64,000 bases of DNA from assembly GCA_029747015.1 (NCBI GenBank), contig JAKOGI010000081.1, positions 806,001 through 870,000 on the forward strand, in the 5' to 3' direction. The position numbers and the translations under genes are program-made. The notes beneath the pieces are model-generated. The model saw nothing but the letters and a program-made list of their open reading frames with translations. It had not been told where the DNA came from and made no database searches. The first letter of the stretch is position 1. Each line of letters starts with the position of its first letter. Shown here piece by piece: positions 18,690-63,187 of this stretch. This DNA comes from Carnegiea gigantea (Eukaryota; Streptophyta; Magnoliopsida; Caryophyllales; Cactaceae).

Positions 18690-20899
18690 AATTAAACATC
18701 TTAGGGTTTTTCTCTGACTCTCTCTTATGTTCCAATGTATTTGTTTATTAAAACAAAAGTTTTAAGACTTTTTGTCAGTTAGTGTTACAAAAACGAATCG
18801 TACCCGCCGATTCGACCGATTCAATCGGGAACTGGGCAGAGGTCCAGTCCAGAGCTAGTTTTGTTAAACTGTCCGACAAACTAACAAGTCAAATCTGATC
18901 AAAAACCGATCAGACCGAATGGTTACGAGGCTTAAACCGATGGTATGAACCGAACAACCCGTTGGTTTTTTCGGCAGAGCCAAATTGACAGAGATAGAAT
19001 ATGAGCACCTAGCTTAGTACAGTGAGAAAGAGGACTGAGTAGAAGAGACGAAGGGGCTTGGGTCCCACGGTTTGGGAACTCTAGAAAGAGAAAAGCTCAT
19101 GAGAGATAGAAAGATGTGTGTGTGTGCGTGAGAGAGAGAGAGAGAGAGGGAGAACCAGTAGAAGTGAGAGACGAGAATGGAGAGGTGGAGGTGAGTAGCA
19201 GGTATCAGTAAACAACTTAGGGTTTTCCTCCCATTCTCTCTTATATTTCCATATATTTAGGTAGTGTTTGGTTGGGGGAGAATGGTTTTTCCGAAAAATG
19301 ATTTTTTAATTATCCGTTGCTTGGCACTATAAGGAATGAAAAATTATTTTCCAAGGACAATTATCTTCCCCCCATTGGAGGAAAATGATTTCCTTTTTGA
19401 GAGGATGGGAAGTTGATTTTCTTCCTTTAACTTTTTGATGATATGATTCGTTGAAATTTAGACGCAAAATTCGATTTCAACAGTTTGGATTGGAACTTAA
19501 CTATCCGATGAGAAATATTAAAACAAACTCAAATTTAAATTTTTACCTCAAATTTCTTTCATTTGATCGACATTTATCTCCACAATGACAATTTAATCGA
19601 CTTTTTTTGCCACTAAAACAATTTAGTCAACTCGCCATTAAAACAATTTCAACGGTTTAGATTGAAACTTGATCATCAGATAGAAAATATTAAAATTGGC
19701 TCAAATTCAAATTTTGAGCTTGATATTCTTTCATTTGATAAAAAAATTTTTCCAAAACGACGATTCAATTGATATTTTTCACCCTTTAAATAGTGCAGTC
19801 AATATTTTTCACCACTAGAATAATTTCAATAGTTTGGATCGAAACTTCATCATCGGATATGAAAGATTAAGATAGGCTCAAATTCAGATGTTGATCACGA
19901 CATTCCTTCATTTAGTTAACATTTTTCTCCGCCATGACAATTCAATCGACATTTTTTGCCATTTAAACAAATCAGTTGATGTTTTTGGTCACTAAAATAA
20001 TTTCAACGTTTCAAATCGAACTTGATTATCCCATAGGAAGTACTTAAAAAAACTCGAATATGAATCTTAAGCTCAAAACTACGACCATTTAGTCAACATT
20101 TTTCGTTATTTAAACAATTCAGTTGACGTTTTTCTCTTTTTTATGAAAAATGATTTATCTTGTACTAAACAATGGAAAATATGACATGAAGATCAATTTC
20201 TCTTGGAAAAGTATTTTTCATAGAAAATGATTTTTGGGGAAAACCATTTCTCTTCCAACTAAACACAACCTTAGTAAAAAAATTTAAGACTCTATTATGG
20301 GTGGGCTGGACTAGTGACTTGTCTATTGGTCCTTGTAATGGCTTTATCTCTATGAATTGATGTGAGATTGATTATGATAATTGTATTTTTGTATTTCATA
20401 CATAATATAGGTATAATAAAATTATATATATAGACTGTGAGGAATCTAATAAAAATGATGAATACAGTAAAGTTTGTATTTAAAAAAATTGTTAATTTTA
20501 AAAATTAAGATTATTTTTTAAGTCGATCTTGTCAATATTTGTCTTGGGGTTGACAGGGTCATGCCTGGTTTAATCCGATTCAATAATCAACCGAGTCAAC
20601 CGGTCCAAGCCAATCCTACTAGTCCTACTGTTTGACCCATTGATCCACTCCTCCGATCGATTTTCTTAACATTGATGGGTGGGCTGGGCTAGTGACTTGT
20701 TCATTTGGCGATTTCCATGGCTCTTTCTTAATTGGCATGGGATTGTTTGCGCTAAAATTTTAATTTTTTACTTGTATTTCATACATAATTTATTTATGTA
20801 TAACAGTATACATGAATGTGAGGAATATAATAAAAATAATGAATATGGCAACATTTACATTAAAAAATTGTTAATGGTAGAAAGACTATTTATTAAGTC
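18690..20899 (+). repeat. Diverged direct-repeat family (units at 18.7, 19.2/20.3 and 20.68 kb)
   Basis: The segment around 18690-18745 (CTTAGGGTTTTTCTCTGAC...) is repeated at about 19214-19259. The segment starting GGGTGGGCTGGACTAGTGAC near 20298 is repeated at about 20675 (GGGTGGGCTGGGCTAGTGAC). The second of these runs in parallel with the first until 20899, where the 17.7-kb viral palindrome interrupts it; the parallel resumes at 38601-38825. These are old direct duplications later used as insertion targets. Confidence 0.65.
19260..20270. mobile_element. Harbinger-like MITE, about 1 kb, with TTA target duplication
   Basis: Terminal inverted repeats GGTAGTGTTTGGTTGG (left) and GGTTGTGTTTAGTTGG (reverse complement of right). 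It is flanked by TTA at 19257-19259 and TTA at 20271-20273. The interior holds about four imperfect tandem units of about 150-190 bp, each with a TTTCAACGGTTTAGATTGAA-like word, a CTCAAATTCAAATTTTGAG-like word and TTTCATTTGATCGACATTT. No coding capacity, so non-autonomous. Confidence 0.8.
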
Positions 20900-21083
20900 T
20901 AAGGGTGGCAATTGAGTCGAGAAAGTGGCATACAGTTTTGTTTTTATTTGGTGAATTTACATATTTGTCCTTCTTTATTTATTTTAATTTAAACATTAAC
21001 TTATGATTTTGCCCTTTTCTTTTTTTTAGATTTCTTTTATTTTAATTTTAAATTACTCCTTTGCCCTTGTTGTTTTATTTTAT
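20900..21083 (-). repeat. Left terminal flank of the viral palindrome
   Basis: About 184 bp of AT-rich non-viral-looking sequence (GCAAGGGCAAAGGAG-like on the minus strand, ending at TAAGGGTGGCAAT). It recurs in inverted orientation at 38420-38600. It behaves like a long terminal inverted repeat around the viral arms. Confidence 0.75.
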
Positions 21084-21787
21084 TCAATTCTCATTGTCTG
21101 AGTAGTATGTAATTTGTGAGTCATTTATATCCATGTCTCCTTGATACTAAACAGTGTATATAAAAGTTAATTCTAATAATGCAATATTATCTTTTAATAT
21201 CTTCCTATTTCTAGATTCTATATTTTCAGGTAAAGATGATAATTGAGTTAGTCGAGATTTATAATGATTAAGCATTTGTTGACGAATACTTCCAGTTGTG
21301 CAGTCAAAAATTCTTAAAAAGTCAAATGTCTATTCTTCTGTATGATATTTTAGATTGGGTAGATAAAATCTATTTTCAGTTATATAATCTCCACATTGAT
21401 CTATTCTAGCTATAGTTTAAATTCTATGTCCGAGGTTTAAAAGATTTCTGGATGAAATCATTTTTTTAGAATTTTAACCAAGGCTGTATATAATAGAACA
21501 AGATAATCTTTTAAATATTCATTCAGTTCTTTAACCATTTGAGTATTTTTGTGGATAAGATGATTCAATAACTTATGATATTGTTTATAAGATTTGCGGT
21601 CTGAAATATCTAAAGTATTTTTAATAGTTTCATATGCTGCTAGAGAGGAACGAAGTAGGGCTTGGTGTTCTATGTTGAGTTTGTGATAGTCATTCCTTAG
21701 AGTGGGAATAGAACTAGCTATGGCAAAATGAGAGTTTCTAAGACAGTGGTTATGAAAATATGGGTGATTTGATGATAGTTCTGCCAT
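21084..21787 (-). pseudogene. Viral ORF after the primer-binding site (left copy), broken
   Basis: Begins with ATG at 21787 (MAELSSNHPYFHNH) and encodes a lysine/leucine-rich, probably helical protein (SDRKSYKQYHKLLNHLIHKN). A stop near 21458 and a frame change follow, then the reading resumes to a TGA at 21084-21086. It lies just downstream of the tRNA-Met primer site, where the first ORF of a caulimovirid is expected. I cannot assign a function; N-terminal part of the capsid/virion-associated region is one possibility. The counterpart is 35978-36655. Confidence 0.6.
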
Positions 21788-21838
21788 ATTTCTTTTAGTT
21801 TGATCAATTAGTAGGGCTCTAATTTACTAAGCTGGTAG

Positions 21839-21850
21839 GCTCTGATACCA
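21839..21850 (-). promoter_or_regulatory. Viral minus-strand primer-binding site (tRNA-Met), left copy
   Basis: The minus strand reads TGGTATCAGAGC, the 12-nt complement of the initiator tRNA-Met 3' end used by caulimovirids to prime reverse transcription. Intact here; the right copy (35914-35925) has one mismatch. Confidence 0.8.
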
Positions 21851-21923
21851 TTAAAGAGGGGGTCTGGCAACTTTTTGTAGAAAAAAGTTTAAAACTCTTT
21901 GATGAAAAGTCAATATTTGAACA

Positions 21924-22454
21924 TGTTGGGTTTATGGCCCAAATCCCTTTTACCGGCTACTTGGAATCTAAGATCATATTGTGTGTTTGAGATCTTCTAT
22001 ATTATGGAAATTATATTATTTTCATATTTTGGGTTGAAAATTTTTTTTCTTTTTGAAAAGATGAGGTTTGGTGATCAAGATACCGTGGTAGATAGGGTTT
22101 CTTCATCCTAACCTTCTTGCCCCTATATAAAGGGGACATACCTAGAATCTAAAATCACTCCAGTACTCATACATACATTGAGAAGTTAGAAGTACTTTAT
22201 GAGAGATTACAATAGAGAGGTTGTAATTCTGCTCTTAGATCAAATCACTGTGGTGATTGTGATCGTGTTGTATTCTTCCTGCTCATAGTGAATTGTTCTG
22301 GTGCTGTCGCCGTCCGTGGTTTTTCCCGCATTGGGTTTTCCACGTTAAATCTCTTGTCTTCTTATTTCTGTTTTCTGTTATTCACTTGAATTCTGAATCT
22401 CTAACTCATCCTATCGCTTCCGCTATTATTATTGCTCTAATATTATTCCTACCA
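21924..22454 (+). repeat. 5' LTR of the Copia element
   Basis: Begins TGTTGGGTTTATGGCCC and ends CCTACCA (the 3' LTR ends CCTAACA). A TATATAAAGG promoter box lies at about 22123-22132. Followed directly by the primer-binding site. Confidence 0.9.
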
Positions 22455-22480
22455 AGTGATATCAGAGCTTTGGTTATAGG

Positions 22481-23690
22481 ATGTCTTCTATCATGAAGGT
22501 AGATATTCAGAAATTCGATAGGGAGATTAGTTTTAATCTCTGGAAGGTGCAGATGAGAGCAATTCTCATTCAGCACGGGTTGTGGAAGGTTCTGAAAGGA
22601 CCTCACGTGAAACCTGAGAAGATGACAGAAGAACAGTAGGCTGAAGATGTGAAGAAGAGACGTGGGTCGTTGACGGAGGACGAATGGGAGGAACTGGAGC
22701 TGAAAGCGGTTTCAGCCATACAGTTGTGCTTGGCACCACATGTCCTGCGAGAGGTGCTTGATAAGACAACTGCGGTGGATCTTTGGGCTCGGCTGGAGGA
22801 ACTCTACATGACGAAGAGTCTCGCCAACAAGATCCGTTTGAAGAAAAGGTTGTATACCTTTCGTATAGCTGAAGGTACCCCTGTCCAAAAGCATTTGAAT
22901 GAGTTTAACTCTATTCTTGTTGACTTGCAGAGTCTAGATGTGAAAGTTGAGGATGAGGATAAGGCTATTTTGCTGATTCTGTTGAGGAATTAGTAGTAAG
23001 GGGTACAACAACTGAAAAGGGGAACGGTACTAGGAGTAAGAACCGTTCTAAGTCTAAAAATCCTCATGCTGGTAAGACCTGCAATTACTGTGGTAAATTG
23101 GGTCATATTATTGCTAACTGTTGGAAACTGCAAAAGAAGAAGGAGAAAGAAGAAGATAATTCTCCTGACCTGCTGAAACTTCGTTTGCTGAATCTGATTC
23201 TGATGGTGACGTTCTGTTTGCTACCTCTACTGAAGGGGGGAGCGATTCTGATTGGATTCTTGATTCTGAGTGTACCTATCATATGTGTCCTCACAAGGAT
23301 TGGTTTTCAACATATGATCCAGTTGACTCAACTGTTGTTCACATGGGCAATAATTCCCAATGTAATGTAACTGGAATTGGTACGGTTAAAATCAAGACTC
23401 ATGATGGTGTTGTCAGGACTGTATCGAATGTTCGTCACGTTCCTGACTTGAAGCGTAACCTCATCTCGTTGGGCACCCTTGAATCCAAAGGGTGCAAATA
23501 TTCAGCTGAAGGTGGAGTTCTGAAGGTCTCAAAGGGCAGTAGGATTCTGCTGAAGGGTTTGAGGCAAAGAGGCCTCTATGTCTTGCAGGCATCTACTGTG
23601 ACAGGTTATATAAAGGAAAGTTCATATAAGTCATCTCCCAGAGCTAAGTTCAAGCATTGCTTGGACTTAGTTGGTATTCGCAATATTTGA
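22481..23690 (+). pseudogene. Copia gag / zinc knuckle / protease-preintegrase remnant
   Basis: ATG at 22481 opens a Copia-type gag (FNLWKVQMRAIL). It has an in-frame TAG near 22636, then reads on through ELKAVSAIQLCLAPHVLREV and LWARLEELYM to stops near 22991. A shifted frame gives the CCHC knuckle CNYCGKLGHIIANC (23080-23121). A further frame gives WILDSECTYHMCPHKDWFS, where the protease DSG is now DSE, then the GAG-preintegrase segment NVRHVPDLKRNLISLG. The frame ends at a TGA at 23688-23690. Pol is absent, so the element depended on other copies to move. Confidence 0.85.
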
Positions 23691-23788
23691 GCGCCCTTCG
23701 GGGCATTGCCCCTTGGAAGGGGCGTCACCCTTCGGGGTGCGATGACGGAGTCAGAGAGTAATGTCGGATTTTGGTCCAAGGTAGAGAT

Positions 23789-24317
23789 TGTTGGGTTTAT
23801 GGCCCAAATCTCTTTTACCAGCTACTTGGAATCTAAGATCATATTGTGTGTTTGAAATCTTCTATATTATGAAAATTATATTATTTTCATATTTTGGGTT
23901 GAAGATTTTTTTTCTTTTTGGAAAGATGAGGTTTGGTGATCAAGATACCGTGGTGGCTAGGGTTTCCTCATCCTAGCCTTCCTGCCCCTATATAAAGGGG
24001 ACATACCTAGGATCTAAAATCACTCCAGTACTCATACATACATTGAGAGGTAGAAGTACTTTGTGAGAGATTACAATAGAGAGGTTGTAATTCTACTCTT
24101 AGATCAAATCACTGTGGTGATTGTGATCGTGTTGTATTCTTCCTGCTCATAGTGAATTGTTCTGTGCTGTCGCCGTCCGTGGTTTTTCCCACATTGGATT
24201 TTCCACGTTAAATCTCTTGTCTTCTTATTTCTGTTTTCTGTTATTCACTTGAATTCTGAATCTCTAACTCATCCTATCACTTCCGCTATTATTGTTGCTC
24301 TAATATTATTCCTAACA
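23789..24317 (+). repeat. 3' LTR of the Copia element
   Basis: Starts TGTTGGGTTTATGGCCC and ends CCTAACA; alignable throughout with 21924-22454. A GC-rich stem-like stretch (about 23691-23750, CGCCCTTCGGGG and CACCCTTCGGGGTGCG) and a purine tract precede it. Confidence 0.9.
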
Positions 24318-24322
24318 GAACA

Positions 24323-24970
24323 AAGAATAGATAACAATCAAATTTCTAACATGGTACTCCCAGCATAATAAATCAAACTATCAGAGTTTCAAGAAATTAT
24401 ACCTTCCCAGTTTTTAGAGTCTCTCGTTAAGATATAGAGTCTTCTGATCTACCGCCACGTCATTCTTCTCATGGGCTTTACTGGCCTTACTTCGATCTTA
24501 AATTTTCTCTCTCACTTTGAGCTTCTTTAAACAAGAGGAGATAAAATTTTAAGAATTTCTGAATAGTTCTTTTTATTAGACGGGTTTTCCAAAAGGGAAG
24601 TTTAGAACAACATCTGCAGAACGCTGATTTGAGTGATCTTTTCTTTACTCAAATTGCCTTTGCTTCTATCATCTATGTTTACATATTTATATTCTTCAGA
24701 GGGATGAAAACCATCCGGTCTCTATTATTGTTAAAGCTATATATAAGGTTTTGTCAAAAGTTTTGGGCCCGCTATTGCCTCCTTTGCGGACTTTTGCTTG
24801 CCAAAAGTTGTCAGCAATTTTGTCTTGCAATTTGGGTGCTATAATTGTTGCTTGTCATTTTGTCAAAAAGTTGTGAATAGTTGATGGTGACGGCTGTCAA
24901 CAATAGTTGCTAGTTGTCTGATAGTGTCGGTAAAATTTTGACCTTACATCTATCTTGATAGTGGCAAAAT
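24323..24970 (-). promoter_or_regulatory. Viral intergenic region with promoter and leader (left copy)
   Basis: Equivalent to 35186-35913. On the minus strand a TATAAAT box (24685-24691) and an AATAAA-like polyadenylation word near 24573 sit between the transactivator-like gene and the primer-binding site, the usual place of the single pregenomic promoter. The leader was split by the Copia insertion. Confidence 0.6.
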
Positions 24971-26128
24971 CTAAGCTGTTCTCAGTAGTGCTTGCTTTTC
25001 ATCCTCTTTTCTAAGTAATTTCGTAAATTTGCGTTTAACAATGATAGATCCTTGAAAGTTCTCAGGTTCTAGTTGCAGGAGAAATGTTAATAGTTCATCA
25101 TCATAGTTGTCTTCTTGCATTCCTTCCTTGGTAATAAGGAAATAGTCCTTTTCTCCTAATAAACATTTCAATCTAGATATATAAAGATGATCTCCATGGC
25201 ATTTAACGGCTAAAGCTTCACTAGATCTTCTGTAACTTACCCATCGTTAAATCGAATCTTTCCAAAAGTTTTTGAAGCTTCAATATTTAGTTGGAAGTTT
25301 TCTGAGATAGAGCCAACTTGTATAATACTGACTATAGGGTAAATAATACTAGTTTCTGAATCTTTTTCCACAGGAAATAGTATGAAACTTTACATAAATT
25401 GAGCCTTTTTTGAGAGTTTTCAGTGTTTGGAGTAGATTTGTAGGGAAGTGAGATAATTCTGTGAGTTTGGGACCTGGACATACAAGGTCAATATATCCGT
25501 ATTTATAGAATTGGTAGATAATGGCTGGGTTAGCTCCGGTACAGGCTATGAGTCGAGTAAATAGAGATTTTCTTCCTCCACTGTAAAAAATTTATAGAGC
25601 TTCATTTAGTTTCCAACAAACTTGCTGGGTGGAGTTGTAGTATTCTGCAAAAAATGAATCACAGATATCAAAAGAAACAAATCGTTTAGTTTGTGTAGCT
25701 GATTGTATAGTTCTTTTAGATAATAGTTTTGCCTTGAGTTCTAGCATTTCCTTCTCTTTTTCAAGAAAGGGAGAGCTCGAACTAGGCTTAGTGGAAGCTG
25801 AAGTTGTAGTTTGTATAGTTGACGAAGTTGCTGGCTTCACAGAACTAGTGGATATCAATTGTGATGTAGTTGAGGATGTGGATCTAAAAGAATTAATAGT
25901 TTTCAGAAGTTCTGAAATAACAGTCCGTCCTTGTTCAAGATCATTTCTCATATCACCAATAATTTCTATAGTTCCTTTGGCAAGTTCATTAACTTCAGTT
26001 CGAACATTTGCAACAATATTTTGGACGCCAGTTTCTAGATGTTATAGATTCATCGTAACAGTTTCTAAATATTCATTGAAATCAATCGTGATGTCTTCAA
26101 GTTCTTTGAGTTTTCCTGGAGTCGTCAT
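24971..26128 (-). pseudogene. Transactivator-like (inclusion body) viral ORF, left copy
   Basis: ATG at 26126-26128 overlaps the end of the RT-RNase H frame, and broken frames extend to a stop at 24971. The N-terminal part is a hydrophilic coiled-coil-like stretch followed by a Ser/Thr-rich linker (SSTTSQLISTSS). The C-terminal part holds a GC(T)GA.P..IYQFYKYGYID.VYP-like block that resembles the core of caulimovirid translation transactivators. Position downstream of RT and upstream of the promoter fits. Assignment by position and weak similarity only. Confidence 0.55.
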
Positions 26129-27415
26129 TGTCGAGATATTCAGCCTCTCTTGTTAAATAATCTACAAGAAAGTTGTGATTTCCCGAACCATGGTCATAAA
26201 CATTGTTAAATTGAGATAAAAAAGTTTGTCATCTATGAAGTTTTCTCATAGGAGGTCCATTATCTAATATTATTTAACACTAGTAGTTGTTGCTTTGTTA
26301 TTAGTTAAAACCTTAAACGTTTTGGATAAAAGACATAATCTCAATTTTTTAATTCCTCGTATTATAGCTAAAATTTCTTTTTCCATGGTATTATAATTTT
26401 CTTCATTTTGAGAAAAAGTTCCGCTATGATATCCACATATTTCATTAAGATCGGTTTTTAGTGTCGCTGACCAGACTTTATCGGATGCATCAGTTTGTAT
26501 TATTGAATTATCTTCTAATTCAGTAATTTTAATTGTGGTAAATTTTCACATTCTTCTTTAAGATTTTTAACTATTTGAGTATGATGGTCACTCCATCCTT
26601 TTGTATTATTTTTTCTTAATAAACTTTGTAAGTCTTTCTTTAGGGACTGGCATAATTGAGTAGGCCTAAAAATTCTTGAGTTTTTTTTTTATTTCTTAGT
26701 TCATCTGGATATTCCATTATTTTTTTTCAAATATGATTTTGTAAAGATATACGGTTATATCCTAATTCAAATCCTAAGAATTCAAATTTTTCTTGTTTTA
26801 TAGTAGTTTTTTTCACGCTTAAACATATGTCTTCTTTGATTGCAGTTTCTGCAAATTGTTGGAGATGTCCCCTTCAAGTGTTGTAGAACTTATTAATATG
26901 TCATCAACATAAACTACAAGAAGTTAAGACGTCTAAAAGTATTATCCATCCTTCTTTAAAAGATTCCTGGTGCATTTTTTAGTTCAAATGGCATGACTAT
27001 CCATTCATGGAATCCTTGTGGAGTGCCAAATTCAATGTATCTGATGCTATCTTCTTCCATTTTTATTTGCCAGAAACTTGATTTACAGTCGAATTTTGAA
27101 AAATACTTTTCATTTTTTACAAGATTAATCAGAACTTCTTTATTAGGTAAAAAGTAACTATCGATCTTGGTGAATCGATTAAGCTTTTTATAGTTTATAA
27201 CCATTCTAGCTTTATTTCATCTTTTTTCAGCTTCATTCATGACCATAAAGGCTGGTGAGGAGTAGCTCCCTTTTGACGGACGTATTAATCCTTTTTCTAA
27301 TAATTCTTTAATTTGTATTGAAAATTCTCTTATATCTTCATGGTATGAAGCATAGGTTTTTCTTTAATATAAACCTTTTGAGTTATTTCTATTTTAGCTC
27401 TTGGATGTTCTGGTT
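26129..27415 (-). pseudogene. Viral reverse transcriptase-RNase H, left copy
   Basis: The minus strand encodes RT motifs VINYKKLNRFT, FDCKSSFWQIKME, FGTPQGFHEW, YVDDILIS (about 26890-26915) and further RNase H-like sequence, interrupted by several stops and frameshifts. The order and spacing match caulimovirid RT-RH. The right-arm homologue (32806-34067) is decayed at different positions. Confidence 0.85.
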
Positions 27416-28470
27416 TTCAAAATTGTAAAGGATTTTCAGAATAAATTTGTTTTAATTTGTTAATTAAATCTTCTTTTTTAATTATATTAATTTGGAAGAT
27501 AGGTTTTTGAAGTTGTATCGAGAGTGCAATTTGTTCATATCCCTGTCCACCACACTGTGTGCGTACTCTGTAAGGGTGTTTTAGAGTTGAAATTATTAGT
27601 GTATGTCTACATTTTGTAGTGAGATAGACAGTATAAGGGGTTTGGGTAAATTTAGATAATTGTTTAAGCAAAACATTGCCTAAAAGTATATCATATTCTG
27701 AGTTATACTATAATACTAGTGGAATATTAAGAATTTTATTTCCTAAAACAATTGATACATTACTTTGTACAAGTTCTAAATATATTGTTGTGGGATGAAC
27801 ACATTTAATTCTAATTTGGTGATTAGATGGAAGTTTTTCCCAGTTGGGTAATAGAAAATCTTGAAAAAGGTTACTTCTGATCCAGTATTTATTAAGGTGG
27901 TTGCAGTGATATCTAATTTTTTTACAGTTACGTCAATGTATGTAAGGATAGGTATATGAAGTTCTTTCATGATCTGTCAAGTATTATTACATTGCTCTTA
28001 TCAACTAAATGGATTTGATTAGGTTTTATATCATAGGTATCGAAATGATTCAAAAAGCTCATTTTGAGTAAAATATGGTAATGTTCATTATTGATAAAAT
28101 GATCAATATAACATTCATATTCTAGGAGAATAGAACTAGGAGTCTTCATCATTAGTTTGGATTTTTGATTAAGTGTAGATTTCCTTCCATCATGAGGAAA
28201 AAAAGTTATATTCAGATGCTGTGATAACTGGAAGGGGTAAAGGGATACACTGACATTGTGATGACCCAGTATCAATCAAGATTTTATTTTCAATCTAAGT
28301 TTGTCCATTGAAGTATTCTAGTTTAACTTGTAGGTTTTATTATTATTTGTTATGGTTATACTTTTAGGTTGAAATCTAGGTATTCTTGTCATACTAAAGC
28401 TTCTTGGTAAAGTTGATTGATTAGTTATCTGCATTCTTTTTGTTGTATAAGAAAGTCTAGGAGCTTCATA
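27416..28470 (-). pseudogene. Two consecutive retropepsin-like domains, left copy
   Basis: First domain: ILIDTGSSQC near 28255-28285, with a closing HILLKMSFLNHFDTYDI segment (27967-28275 frame). A second ATG then opens MKELHIPILTYIDV, with INTGSEV (catalytic Asp replaced by Asn) near 27880 and a GYDILLGN-type closing segment further on. Each stretch has both halves of a retropepsin fold. Both arms show the same duplication, so it predates them. Confidence 0.7.
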
Positions 28471-28559
28471 ACTAGTGGATGCTTCATCTTCATCTACTAA
28501 TTGAAAGTCTGTTAATGCAGGTAACTATGCTTCTTGCACAGGTGGTGCGATAATGGTGC

Positions 28560-29260
28560 TTACAGTTGAGAAAATTGGGTCTATAGTTATTTTTCCTGTT
28601 TGATGTACCTCTTTTATAGGAAAATTCGTGTTAGAAAAAATGTATAATCCTCTGTAATACAAAGATAATGCATCATTTTCTGGTTATAATCCAATACCTA
28701 TTAGAAGTTTAAATTATAGATTCAGAGTATCTTCAATATTTTTACTTCATAGAGTAACTGAGTAGTTTGGATAACATTCAAGGATTAACTTCTTATAATC
28801 ACATTTTCTTGTAGGGTTCCAAGATGACTGTTTTGAATGTTATAAAATCTTTGATCATGCAATGATAAAATGACTAGTGAATTAATACTTCTTTGAAACA
28901 GCCTTTTACAACAATTTGTATTCCTTGTAGATTAACATATTTAATTAATTTTCGATCTTTCGAGGGTTTTTGACTTAAGAATTTTTCAACTATCTCTTAA
29001 GTCATTTATCTTAATCTAATATGACCTTGTAGGTGTTGAACTTTAACTGGTTGTTCTATAGTGTATAATTTGAAATATCTAATCACTTTTCTAGTAAATA
29101 AATTATCTAGTTTTTTCATAAAATTCCTTGGATCTTTAAGTGATAAATCTGTTGCTATTATTTTTGAATATAATTTTTGATTGAATGTAATTATTCCAGC
29201 ATAGTTTTCATTATTTTCTTGCTCTTGTTGTTGGCTTGTATCTGTTTCTTCAGTATTCAC
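28560..29260 (-). pseudogene. Viral movement protein-like ORF, left copy
   Basis: 29006-29260 encodes NYAGIITFNQKL...LFTRKVIRYFKLYTIE, followed in broken frames by a SLHDQRF motif, the D-R signature of 30K-type movement proteins, which enlarge plasmodesmata for virus spread. A stop after LQGHIRLR and shifts beyond it disable the frame. Confidence 0.65.
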
Positions 29261-29299
29261 CTTCTGTTTCTAAAGAATTTTCCGTTTTAGACGCTTCTG

Positions 29300-30045
29300 T
29301 TTCTTTTTCTGAGCTAATAGATTCGTAACAGCTTGAAATTATATCATATTCTTTAAAATTTATTAGATAAAGATCTTCTTGAATTTTTTCAAATTCTTCT
29401 GAAAATAATTTTACTATGTTAGCTTTTCTTTTATAACATCTATAGATTTATGTTCAATTTCTCTACAATTCCAACATTGACATGAGGTTGGTTTTTTATT
29501 TCGTTTATAATATCTATTTTCCGGGTTAAAATCTTCTTGTAATAGTTTTTCATGTCGAAAATGTTTGCTACTTTTTTGAGGTTTATTTACTCATTTTTCA
29601 GTTTTTGCTTTATCCAATTTTGTTTTCTTTGGTTTGGTAGTCTTCTTTTTAGAAAATTTTCTTTTAGAATCTTTCTTGATGGAGTTTTAGTTATATTTTT
29701 TCTTTGGAGTTCTTTCCCTTTTTGGTTTGTAGTTAGGATAATTTTCATAGCCATATTGTCCTAGTTCTTTGATATCTTCATAACATAGAGTTACTTCTTT
29801 GATGTATCTTCTTTTGCTTCCTTGTAGACAGAGCTGAATCATTTCTCTATTTATTAAAGTTTGTACTGCGGCCACTGATCTAAAGATATTTGGATGTTTA
29901 GCAAATTCTTCAAATTTTTCAAAGAAATTTTTATTCCATGGGTTAGGAAACTTACTTAATAATAATTGAAGAATCATGAAGTTCATAGTAACATTTTCTA
30001 TGGAAATTATTTAATAATAATTGAATATAAGTTTCTTGCTTTTAG
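29300..30045 (-). pseudogene. Viral coat protein region with zinc knuckle, left copy
   Basis: 29687-29986 encodes KFEEFAKHPNIFRSVAAVQT...MIQLCLQGSKRRYIKEV and a Lys/Arg-rich tail, as in caulimovirid capsid proteins. A decayed CCHC knuckle (CQCWNCREIEHK) lies near 29460-29500. About 30 bp of local duplication (TTAATAATAATTGAA) is present near 29957 and 30010, unlike the right arm. Confidence 0.65.
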
Positions 30046-30127
30046 ATCTTAATTTTATAAGTTTTATTAACCTTTTGCACTTTAGTCGCTCAATTTTTGC
30101 TTATTTGCAACCAAAGTCCCTCCTTAC
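30046..30127. other. Central spacer of the palindrome
   Basis: About 80 bp between the two arms (TAGATCTTAATTTTATAAG ... AAAGTCCCTCCTTAC), with no counterpart seen in inverted orientation. It would form the loop of any hairpin transcript. Exact limits are uncertain by about 10 bp. Confidence 0.6.
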
Positions 30128-30876
30128 TATGAACTTTATGATTCCACAGAAAATCAAGAAACTTATCTTCAATTATTATTAAATAAATTTCCTAACCAAT
30201 GGAATAAATATTTCTCTGAAAAATTTGAAGAATTTGCTAAACATCTCAATATCTTTAGATTAGTAGCCGTAGTACAAACTTTAATAAATAGAGAAATGAT
30301 TCAACTCTGTCTACATGAAAGAAGAAGAAGATAATCAAAGAAGTAAATCTATGTTGTGAAGATATTAAAGAATCAGGACAATATGGCTATGAAAATTATC
30401 CTAATTACAAACCAAAAAGAAAAGAACTCCAAAGAAAAATATAAGTAAAACTCCATCAAGAAAGATATCTAAAAGAAAATTTTCTAAAAAGAAGACTATC
30501 AAACCAAAGAAAACAAAATTGGATACAGTAAAAACTGTAAAATCAGTAAATAAACCTCAAAAAAATAGTAAATATTTTCGATATGAAAAAATATTACAAG
30601 AAGATTTTAACCTGAAAAATAGATATTATAAACGAAATAAAAAACCAACCTCATGTTAATGTTGAAATTGTGGAGAAATTGGACATAAATTTATAGACTG
30701 TTATAAAAGAAAAGCTAACATAGTAAATTTATTTTCAGAAGAATTTGAAAAAATTCAAGATGATCTTTATCTGATAAATTTTAAAGAATATGACATAATT
30801 TAAAGCTATTGCGAATCTATTAGCTTAGAAGAAGAAACAAAAACATCTGAAATGGAAAATTCTTTAGAAACAGAAG
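30128..30876 (+). pseudogene. Viral coat protein region with zinc knuckle, right copy
   Basis: The frame beginning near 30128 gives ETYLQLLLNKFPNQW then KFEEFAKHLNIFRLVAVVQT, stopping after HERRRR near 30333; a Lys/Arg-rich region follows. The knuckle at about 30655-30700 reads C-stop-C-stop-NCGEIGHKFIDC, i.e. two codons have become stops while the CCHC spacing is kept. Homologous to the left arm in opposite orientation. Confidence 0.7.
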
Positions 30877-31570
30877 ATGAATACTGAAGAAACAGATACA
30901 ATCCAACAACAAGAGCAAGAAAATACTGAAAACTATGCTGGAATAATTACATTCAATCAAAAATTATGTTCAAAAATAATAACAATAGATTTATCACCTA
31001 AAGATCCAAGGAATTTTATGAAAAAATTAGATGATTTATTTACTAGAAAATTAATTAGATATTTCAAATTATACACTATAGAACAACCGGTTAAAGTTCA
31101 ACGCCTACAAGGTAATACTAGATTAAGATTAATGGCTGAAGAGATAATTGAAAATTTCTTAAGTGAAATACCCTCAAAAGATCGAGAATTAATTAAATAT
31201 ATTCATCTACAAGGAATACAAATTGTTGTAAAAGCCTGTTTCAAAGAAGGTATTAATTCACCAATCATTTTATCATTGCATGATCAAAGATTTTAAAAAC
31301 ATTCAAAACAGTCGTCTTGGAACCCTACTAGGGTATCTAATTTGTAAGAAGTTAATCTTTGAATGTTATCCAAACTATTCAGTTACTGTATGAAGTAAAA
31401 ATATTGAAGATACTCTTAATCTACAATTTAAACTTATAACAGATATTAGATTACAAACAGAAAATAATACATTATCTTTCTATTACAGAGGATTATTACA
31501 TTTTTTCCTAACATAAATTTTCTATAAAAGAGGTACATCAAATAGGAAAAATAACTATAGACCCAATATT
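30877..31570 (+). pseudogene. Viral movement protein-like ORF, right copy
   Basis: Open for 139 codons (30877-31296): NYAGIITFNQKL, LFTRKLIRYFKLYTIEQPVK, LIKYIHLQGIQIVVKACFKEG and the 30K-type SLHDQRF motif just before a stop. The C-terminal half is scattered over frames to about 31570. CP upstream of MP is the order seen in cavemo- and solendoviruses, unlike caulimoviruses where MP comes first. Confidence 0.7.
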
Positions 31571-31601
31571 CTCAACTGTAAGCATCATTATTGCACCACC
31601 T

Positions 31602-32174
31602 GTGCCAGAAACATGGTTACCTGCATTAACAGACTTTCAATTAGTAGATGAAGATGAAGCATCTATTAGTTATGAAACTCCTAGACTCTCTTATACAGAA
31701 AAAGGAATGCAGATAGCTAATCAATCAACTTTACCAAGAAGCTTTAGTATGACAAGAATATCTAGATTTCAACCTAAAAGTATAACCATGACAAATAGTA
31801 ATAAAACTTACAAAGTTAAACTGGAATACTTCAATGGACAAACTTGGATTGAAAATAAAATCTTGATTGATACTGGATCATCACAATGTCACTGTATCCC
31901 TTTACCCCTTCTAGTTATCATTGCGTCTGAGTATAACTTTTTTACTTATGATGGGAGAAAATCTACACTTGATCAAAAGTCCGAAATAATGATGAAGACT
32001 CCTAGTTCTATTCTCCTAGAATATAAATGTTATAGTGATCATTCTATCAATAATGAATATTGCCATATTTTACTCAGAATAAACTTTTTGGATCATTTCG
32101 ATACCTATGATATAAAACCTAATCAAATCACTTTAGTTGATAAGAGCAATGTAATAATACTTGACAGATTATGA
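31602..32174 (+). pseudogene. First retropepsin-like domain, right copy
   Basis: A 190-codon frame with the active-site motif ILIDTGSSQCHCIPL near 31860-31905 and a closing hydrophobic segment CHILLRINFLDHFDTYDI near 32060-32112. Both half-sites of an aspartic protease are visible. Ends four nucleotides past the next ATG (32171). Confidence 0.7.
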
Positions 32175-32812
32175 AAGAATTTCATATACCTATCCTTACA
32201 TACATTGATGTAACTGTAAAAGAATTAGATATCACTACAACCGCCCTAATAGATACTAGATCAGAAGTAATCTTTTTTCAAGATTTTCTATTACCCAACT
32301 GGAAAAAACTTTCATCCAATCGCAAAATTAGAATTAAAGGTGTTCATCCCACAACAACATATATAGAACTTGTACAAAGCAATGTATCAATTATTTTAGG
32401 AAACAAAATTCTTAATATTCCACTGGTATTACAGTATAACTCAGGATATGATATACTTTTAGACAATGATTTCCTTAAGCAATTGGCTAAATTTACCCAA
32501 ACCCCTTATACTATCTATCTCACTACGAAATGTAGACACACACTAAAAACTCCAACTCCAAAACACCCTTATAGAGTACGCGCAAAGCGTGATGGACAAG
32601 GATATGAACAAATTACACTCTCGACACAACTTCAAAAACCTATCTTCCAAATTAATATAATTTCAAAAGAAGATTTAATTCACAAATTAAAACAAATTTA
32701 TTCTGAAAATCCTTTACAATTTTGGAAACCAGAACATCCAAGAGCTAAAATAGAATTAACTCAAGAGGTTTATATTAAAGAAAAAGCTATGCTTTATACC
32801 CCGAAGATATAA
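32171..32812 (+). pseudogene. Second retropepsin-like domain, right copy
   Basis: 213 codons opened by ATG overlapping the preceding stop (ATGA). Active-site region reads ALIDTRSEV (DTG changed to DTR), followed by a flap-like region and YNSGYDILLDNDFLKQL, the usual second-half signature (often GxDxLLGxDFL). It leads directly into the RT. Probably the canonical caulimovirid protease, with the first domain being the extra one. Confidence 0.7.
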
Positions 32813-34067
32813 AAGAATTTTCAATACAAATTAAAGAATTATTAGAAAAAGGATTAATACGACTGTCAAAAGGAAGCTATTCCTCACGAGCCTTTATGGT
32901 TATGAATGAAGCTAAAAAATGACGAAATAAAGCTAGAATGCTTATAAATTATAAAAAGCTTAATCGATTCACCAAGACCGATAATTACTTTTTACCTAAT
33001 AAAGAAGTACTGATTAATCTTGTAAAAAATAAAAAGTATTTTTCAAAATTCGACTATAAATAAGGTTTCTGGCAAATAAAAATGGAAGAAGATAGCATCT
33101 GATACATCGGATTTAGCACTCCACAAGAATTCTATGAATGGATAGTCATGTCATTTGGACTAAAAAATACACCAAGAATCTTTCAAAGAAGGATGGATAA
33201 TGTTTTTAGGCATTTAACTCTTTTCTTGTAGTTTATGTTGATGACATATTAATAAGTTCTACAACACTTGAAGAATATCGAGAACATCTCCAACAATTTG
33301 CAGAAAATGCAATCAAAGAAGGCATATGTTTAAGCGAGAAAAAGCTACTATAGAACAAGAAAAAAATTAAATTCTTAGGATTTGAATTAGGATATAACGG
33401 TATATTTTTACAAAATCATATTTCAAGAAAAATAATAGAATATCCAGATGAATTAAGAACTAAGAAACAAATTCAAGCATTTTTAGGCCTACTCAATTAT
33501 GCCAATGCCTATATCGCTGATTTAGCAAAGAAAAAGAAAGACTTACAAAGTTTATTAAGAAATAATATAAAAACGTGGAGTGACCATCATACTCGAATAG
33601 TTAAAAATCTTAAAGAAGAATGTAAAAATTTTCCACAATTAAAATTACCCGAACCAGAAGATAATTTAATAATACAAACTGATGCATTCGGTAAAGTCTG
33701 GTCAGCAGTATTAAAAACTGATCTTAATGAAATACGTGGATATCATAACGGAACTTTTTCTCAAACTGAAAAAAATTATAATACTATGAAAAAAGAAATT
33801 TTAGCCATGATACGAGGAATTAAAAAATTGAAATTATTTCTTTTACCTAAAACGTTTAAGGTTTTAACCGATAACAAAGCACCAACTACTTTTGTTAAAT
33901 AGGTATTAGATAATGGACATCATATGAGAAAATTTTATAGATGGCAAACTTTTTTATCTCAATTTAACGCTGTTTAGGAGCATGTTTCAGGAAATCACAA
34001 CTTTCTTGCAGATTATTTAACAAGAGAGGCTGAATATCTCGATAATGACGACTCCAAAAAAACCTAA
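32806..34067 (+). pseudogene. Viral reverse transcriptase-RNase H, right copy
   Basis: Frames carry LLEKGLIR.SKGSYSSRAFMV, FW(Q)IKMEEDS, YVDDILIS (about 33232-33256), FLGLLNYANAYI (connection) and the RNase H segment QTDAF...WSAVLKTD. In-frame stops occur at about 32922, 33061, 33899 and 33975, plus frameshifts near 33225 and 33360. Ends TAA at 34065-34067, overlapping the next ATG (34045). Confidence 0.85.
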
Positions 34068-35185
34068 AGAACTTGAAGACATCACGTTGATTTCAATGAA
34101 TATTTAGAAACTATTACGGTGAATCTAGAACATCTGCAAACTAGCGCCCAAAAACATTGTTGCAAATGTTTGAACTGAAATTGACGAAGTCGCTAAAGAA
34201 ACTACAGAAATTATTAGTGAAATGAGAAAGGAACTTGAACAAGGACGGACTATTATTTCAGAACTTCTAAAAACTATTAATTCTTTTAGATCCACATTCT
34301 CAACTATATCACCATTGATATCTACTAGTTTTGCGAAGCCAGCAACTTCATCAACTATACAAACTACAACTTCAACTTCCACTTAGCCTAGTTCGAGTTT
34401 TCCCTTTCTTGAAAAGAGAAGGAAATGCTGGAACTCAAGGCGAAACTATTATCTAAAAGAACTATAGAATCAACTACACAAGCTAAACGATTTGTTCCTT
34501 TTGATATCTATGATTCATTTTTTGCAAAATATTACAAGACCACCTAGCAAGTTTATTGGAAACTAAACGAAGCTCCACAAATTTTTTACAGTTGAGGAAA
34601 ATCTCGATTTGCTCGACTCACAGGCTGTACAGGAGCTGACCCAACCATCATCTACCAATTCTATAAATACGGATATATTGACCTTGTATATCCAGATTCC
34701 AAACTTATAGAATTATCTCACTTCCCTACAAATCTACTCCAAACACTAAAGACTCTCAAAAAAGGCTCAATTTATGTAAAGTTCCATACTATTCCCTCGG
34801 AAAAAGATCCAGAAACCGATATAGTTTTCCCTATAGTCAGTATTATACAAGTTCGCTATATCCCAGAAAACTTAAACTAAATATTGAAGCTTCAAAAACT
34901 TTTGAAAAGATTCGATCTGACGAATCATGGGCAAATTACAGAAGATCTAGTGGAGCTTTAGCTGTTAAATGCCATAGAGATCGTCTTCATATATCTGGAT
35001 TGAAATGTTTATTAAGAGAAAAAGACCATGTCCTTATAACCAAGGAAGGAATGCAAGAAGATAAATATGATGATGAACGGTTAACGTTTCTCCTGCAATT
35101 GGAACCTGAGAACTTTCAAGGATCTACCATTGTTAAACGCAGATTTACGGAACTACTCAGAAAGAGGACAAAAAGCAAGCACTAA
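34045..35185 (+). pseudogene. Transactivator-like (inclusion body) viral ORF, right copy
   Basis: ATG at 34045-34047 overlaps the RT frame by 23 nt. Broken frames give an acidic/lysine-rich helix (IISEMRKELEQGRTIISELL), a Ser/Thr-rich linker, a TGCTGADPTIIYQFYKYGYI block and an NFQGSTIVKRRF segment ending at 35185. Matches 24971-26128 in inverted orientation. Function inferred from position and weak resemblance to caulimovirid transactivators. Confidence 0.55.
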
Positions 35186-35913
35186 TAAGAACGGCTCAGA
35201 TTTTGCCACCATTAAGACAGATGTAAGGTCAAAATTTTACCGACACTATCAGACAAACTAGCAGGACAACCGTCACCCTCAACTATTCACAACTTTTTGA
35301 CAAAATGACAAGTAGCAATTATAGCACCCAAATTGCAAGGCAAAGTTGTCGACAACTTTTAGCAAGCAAAAGTCCGCAAAGGTGGCAACAGCGGGCGCAA
35401 AACTTTTGAGAAAACTTTATCTCTAGCTTTAACAATAATTGAGACCAGATGATTTTTATCCCTCTGAAGAATATAAATATGTAAACATAGAAGATAGAAG
35501 CAAAGGAAATTTGAGCGAAGAAAAGATCACTCAAATCAGCGTTCTGCAAATATTGTTCTAAATTTTCCTTTTGGGAAACCAGTCTAATAAACAGAACTAT
35601 TCACAAATTCTTGAGAGTTTATCGTCTCTTGTTTAAAGAAGTTCAAAGTGAGAAAGAAAATTTAAGATCGAAGTAAGACCAGTAAGGCCCGTGAGGAAAA
35701 GGGCATGGCGGCAGATCAGAAGACTCCTTATCTCAACGAGAGACTCTAAAAATTGGGAAGGTATAATTTCCTAAAACTTTGGTAGTTTGATTTATTATGG
35801 TGGGAGTACCATATTAGAAATTTGATTGTTATCTATTCTTTGTTCAAATATTGACTTCTCATCAAGGAGTTTTAAACATTTTTCTACAAAAAATTTCCAG
35901 ACCCACTCTTTAA
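35186..35913 (+). promoter_or_regulatory. Viral intergenic region: promoter and leader (right copy)
   Basis: Contains a TATAAATA box at about 35472-35479 within GAAGAATATAAATATG and an AATAAA word near 35586, about 110 nt downstream, as in pararetroviral terminally redundant transcripts. Left-arm equivalent is 24323-24970. A corresponding box in each arm points outward, away from the palindrome centre. Confidence 0.6.
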
Positions 35914-35925
35914 TGGTATCCGAGC
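35914..35925 (+). promoter_or_regulatory. Viral primer-binding site (tRNA-Met), right copy
   Basis: TGGTATCCGAGC, one mismatch from the TGGTATCAGAGC consensus kept in the left arm (21839-21850). Confidence 0.75.
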
Positions 35926-35977
35926 CTACCAACATAGTGAATTAGAGCCCTACTAACTAATCAAACTAAAAAAAAAT

Positions 35978-36655
35978 AAGGCAGAACTACTATCAAAACA
36001 CCCGTATTTTCATAACCACTCTCTTAGAAACTCTCATTTCACCATAGCTAGTTCTATTACCATTCTAAGAAATAACTATCACAAACTCAGCACAGAACAC
36101 TAAGCCCTACTTCGTTCCTCTCTAGCAGAATATGAAGCTATTAAGAATACTTTAGATATTTCAGACCGTAAATCTTATAAACAATATCATAAGTTATTGA
36201 ATCATCTTATCCACAAAAATACTCAAATGGTTAAAGAACTGGATGAATTTTTAAAAGATCATCTTGCTCCATACAGCCTCGGTTAAAATTGTGAAATTTT
36301 AAACCCCAGACATAGCTGTCAAACTACCGTTAGAATAGATCAATATGAAGATTATATAACTGAAAATAGATTTTATCTACCCAATTTAAAATATCATACA
36401 GAAGAATAGGCCTTTGACTTTTTAAGAATTTCTGACTGCACAACTAGAAGTATTCGTCAACAAGTGCTTAATCATTATAAATCTCGACTAACTCAATTAT
36501 CATCTTTACCTGAAAAAGTAGAACCTAGAAATACGAAGATATTAAAAGATAATATTGCATTATTAGAATTAACCTCTATATACACTATTTGGTATCAAGA
36601 AGACATGGATATAAATGACTCCCAAATTACATACTACTCAAACGATAAGAATTGA
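35978..36655 (+). pseudogene. Viral ORF after the primer-binding site, right copy (start lost)
   Basis: Counterpart of 21084-21787. The initiator is AAG here where the left arm has ATG. It keeps DISDRKSYKQYHKLLNHLIHKN and, in another frame, LNHYKSRLTQLSSLPEKVE...LTSIYTIWYQEDMDI before TGA at 36653-36655. Several stops interrupt the middle. Function unassigned. Confidence 0.6.
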
Positions 36656-36752
36656 CGCAATTTATTACCTACAACCTGGTGGACAATTAATTGTCCACCC
36701 GGGCCAACCACTAGCCGCAAATTATATAGAAAGTGCTCCCGTTCAATATTAA
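36645..36752 (+). pseudogene. Start of a further viral ORF, 36 codons, right copy only
   Basis: Overlaps the previous TGA by 11 nt. The frame RIDAIYYLQPGGQLIVHPG ends at TAA 36750-36752. The left arm has ATGAGAATTGA at the equivalent place, so this was an ATG-TGA overlapping gene start as is common in caulimovirids; in the right copy the ATG is ATA. Only the right arm retains this sequence, and what follows is not viral. Confidence 0.5.
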
Positions 36753-36775
36753 TTATAATCAGCAATTATAGTAGG

Positions 36776-36930
36776 AATGGATGGGTAGTGGAGTGGCAAG
36801 GATTTTTTACTCAAATTGGTGAGGTCATGGGTTCAATTCATGGTAAAAGAAAAGCCTATTTTTAAGTATTATTCTTTTCGTCCTAAAAGTCTTTTAAGCG
36901 CCTTTCAAAAAAAATTCTAATTTTTTTTAA
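36776..36930 (+). mobile_element. Possible tRNA-related SINE fragment
   Basis: GGGTAGTGGAGTGGCAAGG (A-box-like) is followed about 40 nt later by a B-box-like GGTTCAATTC and an A/T-rich tail. No target duplication found. Confidence 0.35.
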
Positions 36931-37689
36931 TTCTTCCATTGAAATATTAAGCCATACACTTGTATTTACATGGATCTGCGTTCACTATTTTTGTGTAAAA
37001 TTCCTAATTTTAAGATAAATATTAATTGAAAATTTATATATTTATTATTTGCATTTTTACTCAATAGAAGCATGTAGATTTATTATAAAAATAAACAAAA
37101 ATAAGAAAATAATTCACTATAAATTTTTATATGTATGGATACTGCATTAGTGAGCAATACTGCATATATTAGTAAGCGATATAATATATTTAATGAGCAA
37201 TACTATGTTAGTAAGAAATATTTATATTATCTTTTATTATAACATTAGCGCATTTATATTATACATATTTAGTCAGTATAATACAAATATAATCTAACTC
37301 ATAAAAGTATGTTATAGCTCAATAAATATAAGTTATAGCTTACTAAAAGACGAATGTATCATACCTTAGAATATGAACAAAAGGTATATGTGCTAACTTA
37401 GATTATGTACTATATTGTTTGTTCACTCATTTTTTATTGTGAATGATTAGTATTCCACGCTAAATCATATTGGTCACAAAATATATTTTATAGCTCACAA
37501 AATATCTATCCTCACTCACTAAATAAATAGCATAACTTATGAAAAAGAATGGTATAGATAGCCAGCAAATAATATTGCAAGTTCTTGAGTTATATTGCAA
37601 CTCAATCATTTTTTATTATGACATAAGGTGTTTGTATTATATTTTGTGAATATAATAAAAATGTAGTGAATTAATTAAATATAGTCCAA

Positions 37690-38310
37690 CTCACTAAATA
37701 TATGTTATAACTCACTAAATATATGTCATAGCTTACTAAAAAAATATACACAACTAGAATATAGTTTAATGAGTTTCAAATGCATAATAACATTTTTTTT
37801 TTTTTAGTATAATAGCACATTTTAATAAGTTATATAATATTTTTACGAAGTGAAACCTAGCGTACATAAGATGCATTTGTTTGATCTATCTGCTCACTAA
37901 AAGTATGTATTTGCTCACTAAAACTATGTCTCAGCTCACTAAATATTGTAGTGAGCTATAGATTTTCGGTGAGCTGAAATTCGATTGTACAATTACTTCT
38001 ACACAACTGATTGTATGATATAACAGCTCAGTAAATAAATATTATAGCCCACTAAAAAAATATAGACAATTAGAATATAGTTTAATGAATTTCAGATTCA
38101 CAACAATATTTTTTTAGTACAATAGCACATTTAATAAGTTATATAGTACTTTTACTAAGTAAAACCTGAGTATATAAGATACATTAGTTTCGACATATCT
38201 GCTCACTAAAACTGTATCTCAACTCACTAAAATATTTTAGTGAGCTATACATTATTTTTAGTGCGCGAAATTGGATGCACAACAACATATTTTAGTGAGC
38301 AGAAATCCAA
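37690..38310 (+). repeat. Two tandem units of about 315 bp rich in CTCACTAAA words
   Basis: The word GAATATAGTTTAATGA occurs at 37758 and 38073, with the surrounding sequence (ACTAAAAAAATATA before; TAGTATAATAGCACATTT, AAGTTATATA, GCTCACTAAAA after) parallel for a full unit. The wider zone from about 37090 is also peppered with CTCACTAAA/TTTAGTGAGC words in both orientations. Non-coding. Confidence 0.65.
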
Positions 38311-38419
38311 CAGTTTTCTTTGTTTTTTGTACATGGCACGCCAGATAAGCAATTTGTGAGTCCAGTTGTACAATTGCATTTGTACAATCAGGTGGACCAT
38401 ATGCCAACTGGAGAATTGA

Positions 38420-38600
38420 ATAAAACAAAAACAGCAAGGGCAAAAGAGCAATTTAAAATTAAAATAAAAGAAATCTAAAAAGAAAAGGGCAAAATTGTAA
38501 ATTGACACTTAAATTAAAATAAATAAAGAACAAATACGTAAACTCACCAAATAAAAACAAAATTTCATGTCGCTTTCTCGACCCGATTGCCCCCCTAAAA
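38420..38600 (+). repeat. Right terminal flank of the viral palindrome
   Basis: Inverted counterpart of 20900-21083. It ends CGATTGCCCCCCTAAAA. A 50-55 bp tandem duplication of the junction (GACCCGATTGCC...TTTAAGTCCATCTTGAC) runs on into 38601-38662. Confidence 0.7.
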
Positions 38601-38825
38601 TTTAAGTCCATCTTGACAATTGACCCGATTGCCACTCCTAAAATTTAAGTCCATCTTGACAACATATGTCATGTCATTAACCAGTGCATGTCTGGCTCAA
38701 TCCAGTTCAACATTCAACCAGGCCAACTGATCCGGACCATCCTGCCGATCTGACCATTTGACCCATTGTTCCACTTATCCAATTGGTTCGATCACCACGC
38801 CGGTTTTCTCGACATTATCTCATGG

Positions 38826-39708: not shown

Positions 39709-63187
<23,479 letters not shown>

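Follow-up and report, generated by a model that had tools for sequence, protein, structure and literature searches.

A broken endogenous caulimovirid fragment in inverted duplication in the genome of Carnegiea gigantea, probably a single insertion with transposon-like ends and a predicted hairpin if transcribed

Inverted repeats of endogenous caulimovirids that produce small interfering RNA (siRNA) have already been reported. According to the passages of a review that deal with such loci (PMC10377300), the tomato examples, known as TSAs (Valli et al.), yield siRNA of 22 nucleotides (nt), a point that recurs in a passage of PMC12904150, and soybean carries inverted repeats derived from caulimovirids and transposable elements (Jia et al. 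2020), again with 22-nt siRNAs. The same passages describe tandem arrays and multicopy rearrangements of endogenous caulimovirids, possibly arising from concatemers; hypotheses on integration and on arrays are set out there, and within the sections devoted to them none is specific to inverted repeats. Here we describe a locus of this kind in the cactus Carnegiea gigantea. The window that was analysed, 64,000 nt of contig JAKOGI010000081.1 (assembly GCA_029747015.1, positions 806,001 to 870,000 of the forward strand, numbered below from its first letter), holds two mirror-image arms of decayed caulimovirid sequence at 20.9-38.6 kb. We think it probable that this palindrome is a duplicated, broken caulimovirid fragment framed by transposon ends, which now stands as one insertion and would give a hairpin if transcribed.

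How does this locus compare with those already described? Like the TSAs, it consists of a decayed caulimovirid in inverted repeat with a predicted hairpin transcript; unlike the TSAs as the review describes them, the cactus palindrome can be read in its entirety as a single insertion, with ends that resemble those of transposons and a target duplication of 8 bp. The soybean repeats, compared here by their description (PMC10377300), likewise join an inverted repeat with caulimovirid sequence, and in the eBSV of banana viral fragments are likewise duplicated in opposite directions. eBSV, however, is described in that review as recent and replication-competent, whereas the polymerase gene (pol) is broken in both arms of the cactus palindrome. 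A parallel from outside the viruses is Mu killer of maize (PMC3440606), which also has two transposon terminal regions within an inverted duplication, and for which read-through from a neighbouring gene has been suggested as the source of the hairpin. In open-access titles and the beginnings of abstracts, searches pairing pararetrovirus with hAT, or caulimovirid with target-site duplication, found no caulimovirid palindrome within DNA-transposon ends, and open-access literature queried for caulimovirid together with hairpin, inverted repeat and head-to-head returned nothing. New here are the probable framing of the pair as a single insertion, the pol lesions shared by neutrally diverged arms, and the presence of an inward-facing long terminal repeat (LTR) element together with a converging kinase gene.

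The palindrome was detected by two methods. Its inner pair of arm pieces (left 24318-29972, right 30166-35845) aligns over 5,706 columns and its outer pair (left 21084-21923, right 35841-36655) over 841; in the two combined, 565 of 6,443 ungapped sites differ (8.8%), 415 of them by transitions, with 36 indels and a Kimura two-parameter (K2P) distance of 0.094. Because the inner match runs for 5.7 kb at 90% identity, with an expectation value (E) printed as 0.0, chance is excluded as its origin. The left viral arm occupies 21084-29972 on the minus strand, interrupted at 21924-24317, and the right arm, delimited by inverted-repeat and gene-piece evidence, 30129-36655 on the plus strand, with about 6.5 kb of virus in each, head to head. 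At its inner end, next to the spacer, the left arm has a stretch of locally rearranged viral sequence (29973-30043, minus strand), delimited partly by eye. The spacer itself measures 85 bp (30044-30128), and an extended counterpart sought in both arms was not found, the only matches being short and weak (the best of 21 bp).

A preliminary description of this DNA had placed a spacer of about 80-90 bp at the centre and the same decayed viral genes on either side of it, in opposite orientation and running outward; the measured spacer and the aligned arms agree with both statements. To that description the interruptions of the arms have to be added: the left arm holds a copia-type LTR element of 2,394 bp, and the right arm is broken between virus and flank by an insertion of about 1.76 kb.

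Could the mirror image have been made by the assembly, or by the merging of haplotypes? Palindromes are a known hazard for genome assembly, which speaks for an artefact; but the arms are 8.8% diverged, they carry private insertions, every one of which has a short duplication of its own, and the outer flanks fit one interrupted repeat. We regard an artefact as highly improbable and the mirror-image caulimovirid pair at these coordinates as confirmed.

Judged by matches to Peptidase_A3, RVT_1, RT_RNaseH_2 and MP, the viral part of both arms is endogenous Caulimoviridae, the identity proposed for it earlier. From the centre outward the order is the end of a presumed coat-protein gene, the movement protein, an A3-type protease, reverse transcriptase (RT) and RNase H, followed by several unassigned pieces, a tRNA-Met primer-site motif and an unassigned first open reading frame (ORF), whose end lies at the flank. 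The right arm, on the plus strand, contains a movement-protein piece (30868-31296; Pfam MP PF01107, E 2.1e-13), an aspartic protease piece (32165-32812; Peptidase_A3, E 5.6e-12) that ends at a frameshift shared by the arms, and a piece with the RT end and RNase H (33354-33902; RT_RNaseH_2, E 7.7e-16), with a stop shared by the arms just upstream. The left arm, on the minus strand, contains an RT piece (26956-27216; RVT_1, E 3e-11), and a Pfam search of its counterpart of the movement-protein piece gave no MP match. The coat-protein label was assigned by eye and from gene order; a zinc-knuckle pattern is visible by eye near 30.66-30.70 kb, and the neighbouring pieces are without a Pfam match. 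The motifs resembling a tRNA-Met primer-binding site precede the first ORF and occupy corresponding positions in the two arms, with 12 of 12 letters in the left arm (21839-21850, minus strand) and 11 of 12 in the right (35914-35925, plus strand). When two mismatches are allowed, 6 such sites are found against 3.55 expected, and the exact match alone counts.

As for relatives, 2 of 593 protein-collection candidates matched the RNase H piece at E <=1e-10 (57-58% identical) and 2 of 327 matched the protease piece at E <=1e-5 (64-74% identical). In the viral contigs of IMG/VR, pattern matches were obtained to 20, 3 and 192 stretches, and none of these was confirmed as a relative. A search of the window for RNA families and tRNAs returned none. 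Within 31512-32812, protease-like motifs DTG and DTR occur in adjoining open pieces, the first of which is without a Pfam protease match.

Was the virus integrated twice, or was one copy duplicated? The preliminary description spoke of two endogenous genomes. What remains of the virus is less than a full genome, and both arms begin, at the centre, within the presumed coat-protein gene; two full viral genomes are ruled out by the identical truncation points of the arms together with their shared lesions. Both arms have a pol frameshift near 32.80 kb, at which the protease piece runs out of frame; there are zero arm-to-arm indels from 32271 to 33213, and the relative P0004 is continuous across the site. 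An in-frame stop near 33.35 kb is also common to both, at a place where one residue is found in each of the relatives P0001 and P0002. The private pol stops, counted in frames that we assigned from the open pieces, are six in the left arm and six in the right, one of the latter being doubtful, with an indel adjacent. Shared stops that were not counted are a second one in a pol frame, near 34.07 kb, which may be a natural gene end, and seven more in the coat and movement segments, where the frame is unsecured or a natural gene end is possible. Because the private stops outnumber the shared lesions, most of the decay came after the duplication.

The arms have otherwise diverged neutrally. The codon analysis covered 1,441 codons in 11 open pieces, with one overlapping left and one overlapping right piece excluded, gapped codons dropped and stop-bearing codons kept outside the ratio of nonsynonymous to synonymous differences (pN/pS). 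Arm to arm, this ratio was 0.78 (bootstrap 0.62-1.02), as against 0.71 (0.55-0.88) when the same changes were placed at random, and the differences by codon position, 150/121/98, show no surplus at third positions such as would result from selection on viral proteins. In the arm comparison there was no sign of selection keeping the arms alike beyond a weak trend toward the centre: divergence is 7.9% in the inner half and 9.6% in the outer (Fisher p = 0.017; rank correlation p = 0.059), a slight difference that may reflect gene conversion or chance.

Because the pol lesions are shared, the divergence is neutral and a flank beyond the virus is shared as well, the evidence argues for a single integrated copy, truncated and already broken when its inverted duplication took place, and we favour this over the two genomes first suggested. 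A different history would have two linear viral DNAs joined head to head at integration, the 190-bp flank being either viral or filler. Arrays and rearrangements of caulimovirids, possibly from concatemers, are described in the review passages mentioned above (PMC10377300), and a tally of two secured shared lesions against twelve private stops would suit that history too; yet two lesions are common to both arms, both arms end at identical points, and the flank, which is without a long open frame, is shared at 87%. Joining at integration is, in our view, unlikely.

The flank deserves a closer look. Beyond the virus, the arm homology continues for about 190 bp, in which 161 of 185 ungapped sites are identical (87%); a terminal match of about 180 bp had been proposed, and similarity between the arms outside the viral genes is indeed present. 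The alignment covers 20893-21083 on the left and 38413-38605 on the right, a few of the outermost bases belonging to the target duplication, and the flanks proper lie at 20900-21083 (plus strand) and 38413-38600 (minus strand), each with a hAT-like terminus at its outer edge. No open stretch exceeds 27 codons in the viral sense, the longest in the left flank being 26, and the shared flank is non-coding and probably non-viral.

Outside these flanks the sequence belongs to a host repeat, of which an uninterrupted sister copy is found close by (20282-20657, plus strand) and provides a paralogous empty site with about 71% identity to each outer flank. The left half of the interrupted copy (20671-20899, plus strand) ends in the probable 8-bp target-site duplication, and the right half (38644-38783, plus strand) was placed by alignment to the sister copy. 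The left outer flank matches the sister at 20294-20524, with identity in 173 of 242 columns and a score of 200, where 200 mononucleotide shuffles reached at most 69. The right one matches it at 20517-20657, with identity in 100 of 141 columns and a score of 115, where 200 such shuffles reached at most 40. On the left side, the bases that match the sister abut the end of the arm-to-arm homology. Because the outer flanks align to one sister copy and their alignments overlap by 8 bp within it, the block with its flanks is probably a single insertion within one copy of the host repeat, with an 8-bp target duplication. The left copy of the probable duplication is ATTAAGTC at 20892-20899; on the right the motif TTTAAGTC occurs twice, at 38601-38608 and, 43 bp further out, at 38644-38651, because the junction was later duplicated in tandem (a 43-bp duplication across the right terminus and host junction, 38580-38662, which holds both copies). 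Beside the repeat unit that holds the block, at 19474-20104, there are tandem repeats of about 172-177 bp.

The block terminates in TAAGGGTGGCAATTG and TAGGGGGGCAATCG, which look like putative hAT transposon ends; a literature search for these terminus letters as hAT ends found no support. The cargo of Mu killer is a transposase and its ends are those of Mutator, whereas the cargo here is a virus, presumably between hAT-like ends.

Several observations weigh against a single broken copy inserted with its transposon ends. The flanking 8-bp copies agree at 7 of 8 positions, with one mismatch (ATTAAGTC against TTTAAGTC); the right terminus is separated from its 8-bp copy by three additional A's; the best right-flank alignment begins at the outer of the two tandem-duplicated copies; and the empty site is provided by a paralog of 71% identity instead of the orthologous position in a relative. 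The putative hAT label draws on the letters of the termini and this imperfect 8-bp duplication. Since the arms are homologous anyway, inverted termini prove nothing on their own and are not independent evidence, and the weight lies on the empty-site comparison. No further strong match to the flank was found in the 64-kb window. In the arms, only 2 secured shared pol lesions stand against 12 private stops, and the codon-position counts are uneven (p = 0.004), leaning toward first-position changes in a way that is unexplained.

How might such a structure have come about? We propose that one truncated caulimovirid fragment integrated beside or inside the end of a DNA transposon and then lost its working polymerase gene. 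The unit made of transposon end, 190-bp flank and virus would have been duplicated in inverted order around the 85-bp spacer, perhaps by fold-back or by aborted gap repair following a transposon cut. The palindrome could then have been moved into the host repeat by transposase, or it could have been duplicated in place with a strand switch at the terminal repeats. Afterward the arms would have drifted neutrally, and the copia-type element and another insertion would have landed in them. Transcription that starts in the inward LTR, or that runs on from the kinase gene, could finally produce a multi-kilobase hairpin RNA, a candidate substrate for Dicer.

A bolder version makes the caulimovirid fragment the cargo of a hAT-type fold-back transposon, that is, a mobile palindrome of about 13.5 kb (without the later insertions) whose arms are the virus. 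We consider this rather doubtful. If it were true, each transposition would bring a ready-made antiviral hairpin locus to a new place, where nested LTRs or neighbouring genes would supply the promoters.

The later insertions help to order these events. The copia-type element in the left arm (21924-24317, plus strand) has LTRs of 531 and 529 bp and a 5-bp duplication, GAACA, and the right arm shows the corresponding empty site. The two LTRs differ at 20 of 529 sites (K2P 0.039). Because this distance is smaller than the 0.094 between the arms, the element is younger than the palindrome and so inserted after it had formed; its absence from the right arm is compatible with this order. A TATA-like motif is present in each LTR (22124 and 23989). 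The insertion in the right arm (36656-38412, no strand assigned) has an 8-bp duplication, AGAATTGA, and internal repeats of about 21 bp, and a search of it for a terminal inverted repeat gave none that was convincing.

What would an RNA from this locus look like? In the two arm pieces, 90% of the columns are Watson-Crick pairs and 3% wobble, and the predicted fold of the central 581 nt has an energy of -276.7 kcal/mol, where 100 shuffles average -98.6 (z = -31.9). Among 24-nt windows of the plus strand in both arm pieces, 23% are fully paired, wobble allowed, and 80% have at most two unpaired positions. An RNA across the centre is predicted to form a long hairpin, a type of RNA known as a source for small-RNA silencing, and the predicted pairing thus sides with the preliminary description, which had foreseen such a transcript.

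Another question is where that RNA could start. The viral genes run outward from the centre, and the viral promoters presumably do so too if they lie before the primer site, as in the usual layout. The outward direction had been recognized earlier and holds for the genes; the accompanying requirement that a transcript start outside or in the flank is incomplete, given the inward LTR inside the left arm and the kinase gene directed toward the block from the right. Outward viral promoters as the sole internal drivers were dropped in view of that element. The copia-type element lies in plus orientation, its sense strand pointing toward the centre, and an RNA begun in its downstream LTR would run through what remains of the left arm, across the spacer and through the right arm.

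On the other side of the block, the exons of a plant protein-kinase gene (39709-62803, minus strand) are spread over more than 20 kb, the last coding exon having its stop at about 39.71 kb. The gene is oriented toward the palindrome and ends about 1.1 kb from the right end of the block; transcription running past this end would reach the palindrome from its right side. Of the five kinase pieces, four have a match to Pfam Pkinase, with one scoring higher than the curated cut-off, and the best matches of the first exon among solved structures include PKC and greatwall kinases; the gene is presumably IRE-like. Weak RT matches are located between the kinase exons at 54122-54613 and 58565-59701. 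A further inverted pair, 49158-49774 and 59795-60434, extends for about 640 bp at 82.6% identity, and its second member adjoins an RT-like reading frame at 58448-59701.

Even with these possible starts, the palindrome may be an inert relic, silent or without regulatory effect, whose mismatches and insertions mark decay; such an outcome is compatible with the structure favoured above, and we rate its chances a little below even. The neutral drift between the arms agrees with it, and so does the spectrum of C-to-T differences. Over the arms (21084-36655), C is matched by T in the other arm at 57 of 305 CG sites, 82 of 522 CHG sites and 276 of 3,062 CHH sites, a bias toward CG and CHG as expected from long-term DNA methylation of repeats. 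Pulling the other way are the 80% of 24-nt windows that keep at most two unpaired positions and the similar inverted repeats of tomato and soybean, which the review passages report as making 22-nt siRNAs (PMC10377300).

The relevant sections of the review (PMC10377300) give no specific hypothesis for how inverted-repeat silencing loci originate from endogenous pararetroviruses. The cactus locus keeps a paralogous empty site, the boundaries of the duplication, lesions both common and private, and a later insertion that can be dated, so that the order of events is testable. If the transposon framing is true, it would show one way in which viral hairpin loci are formed, and perhaps moved, by the repair of DNA transposons, and the formation of a viral hairpin would then parallel that of Mu killer.

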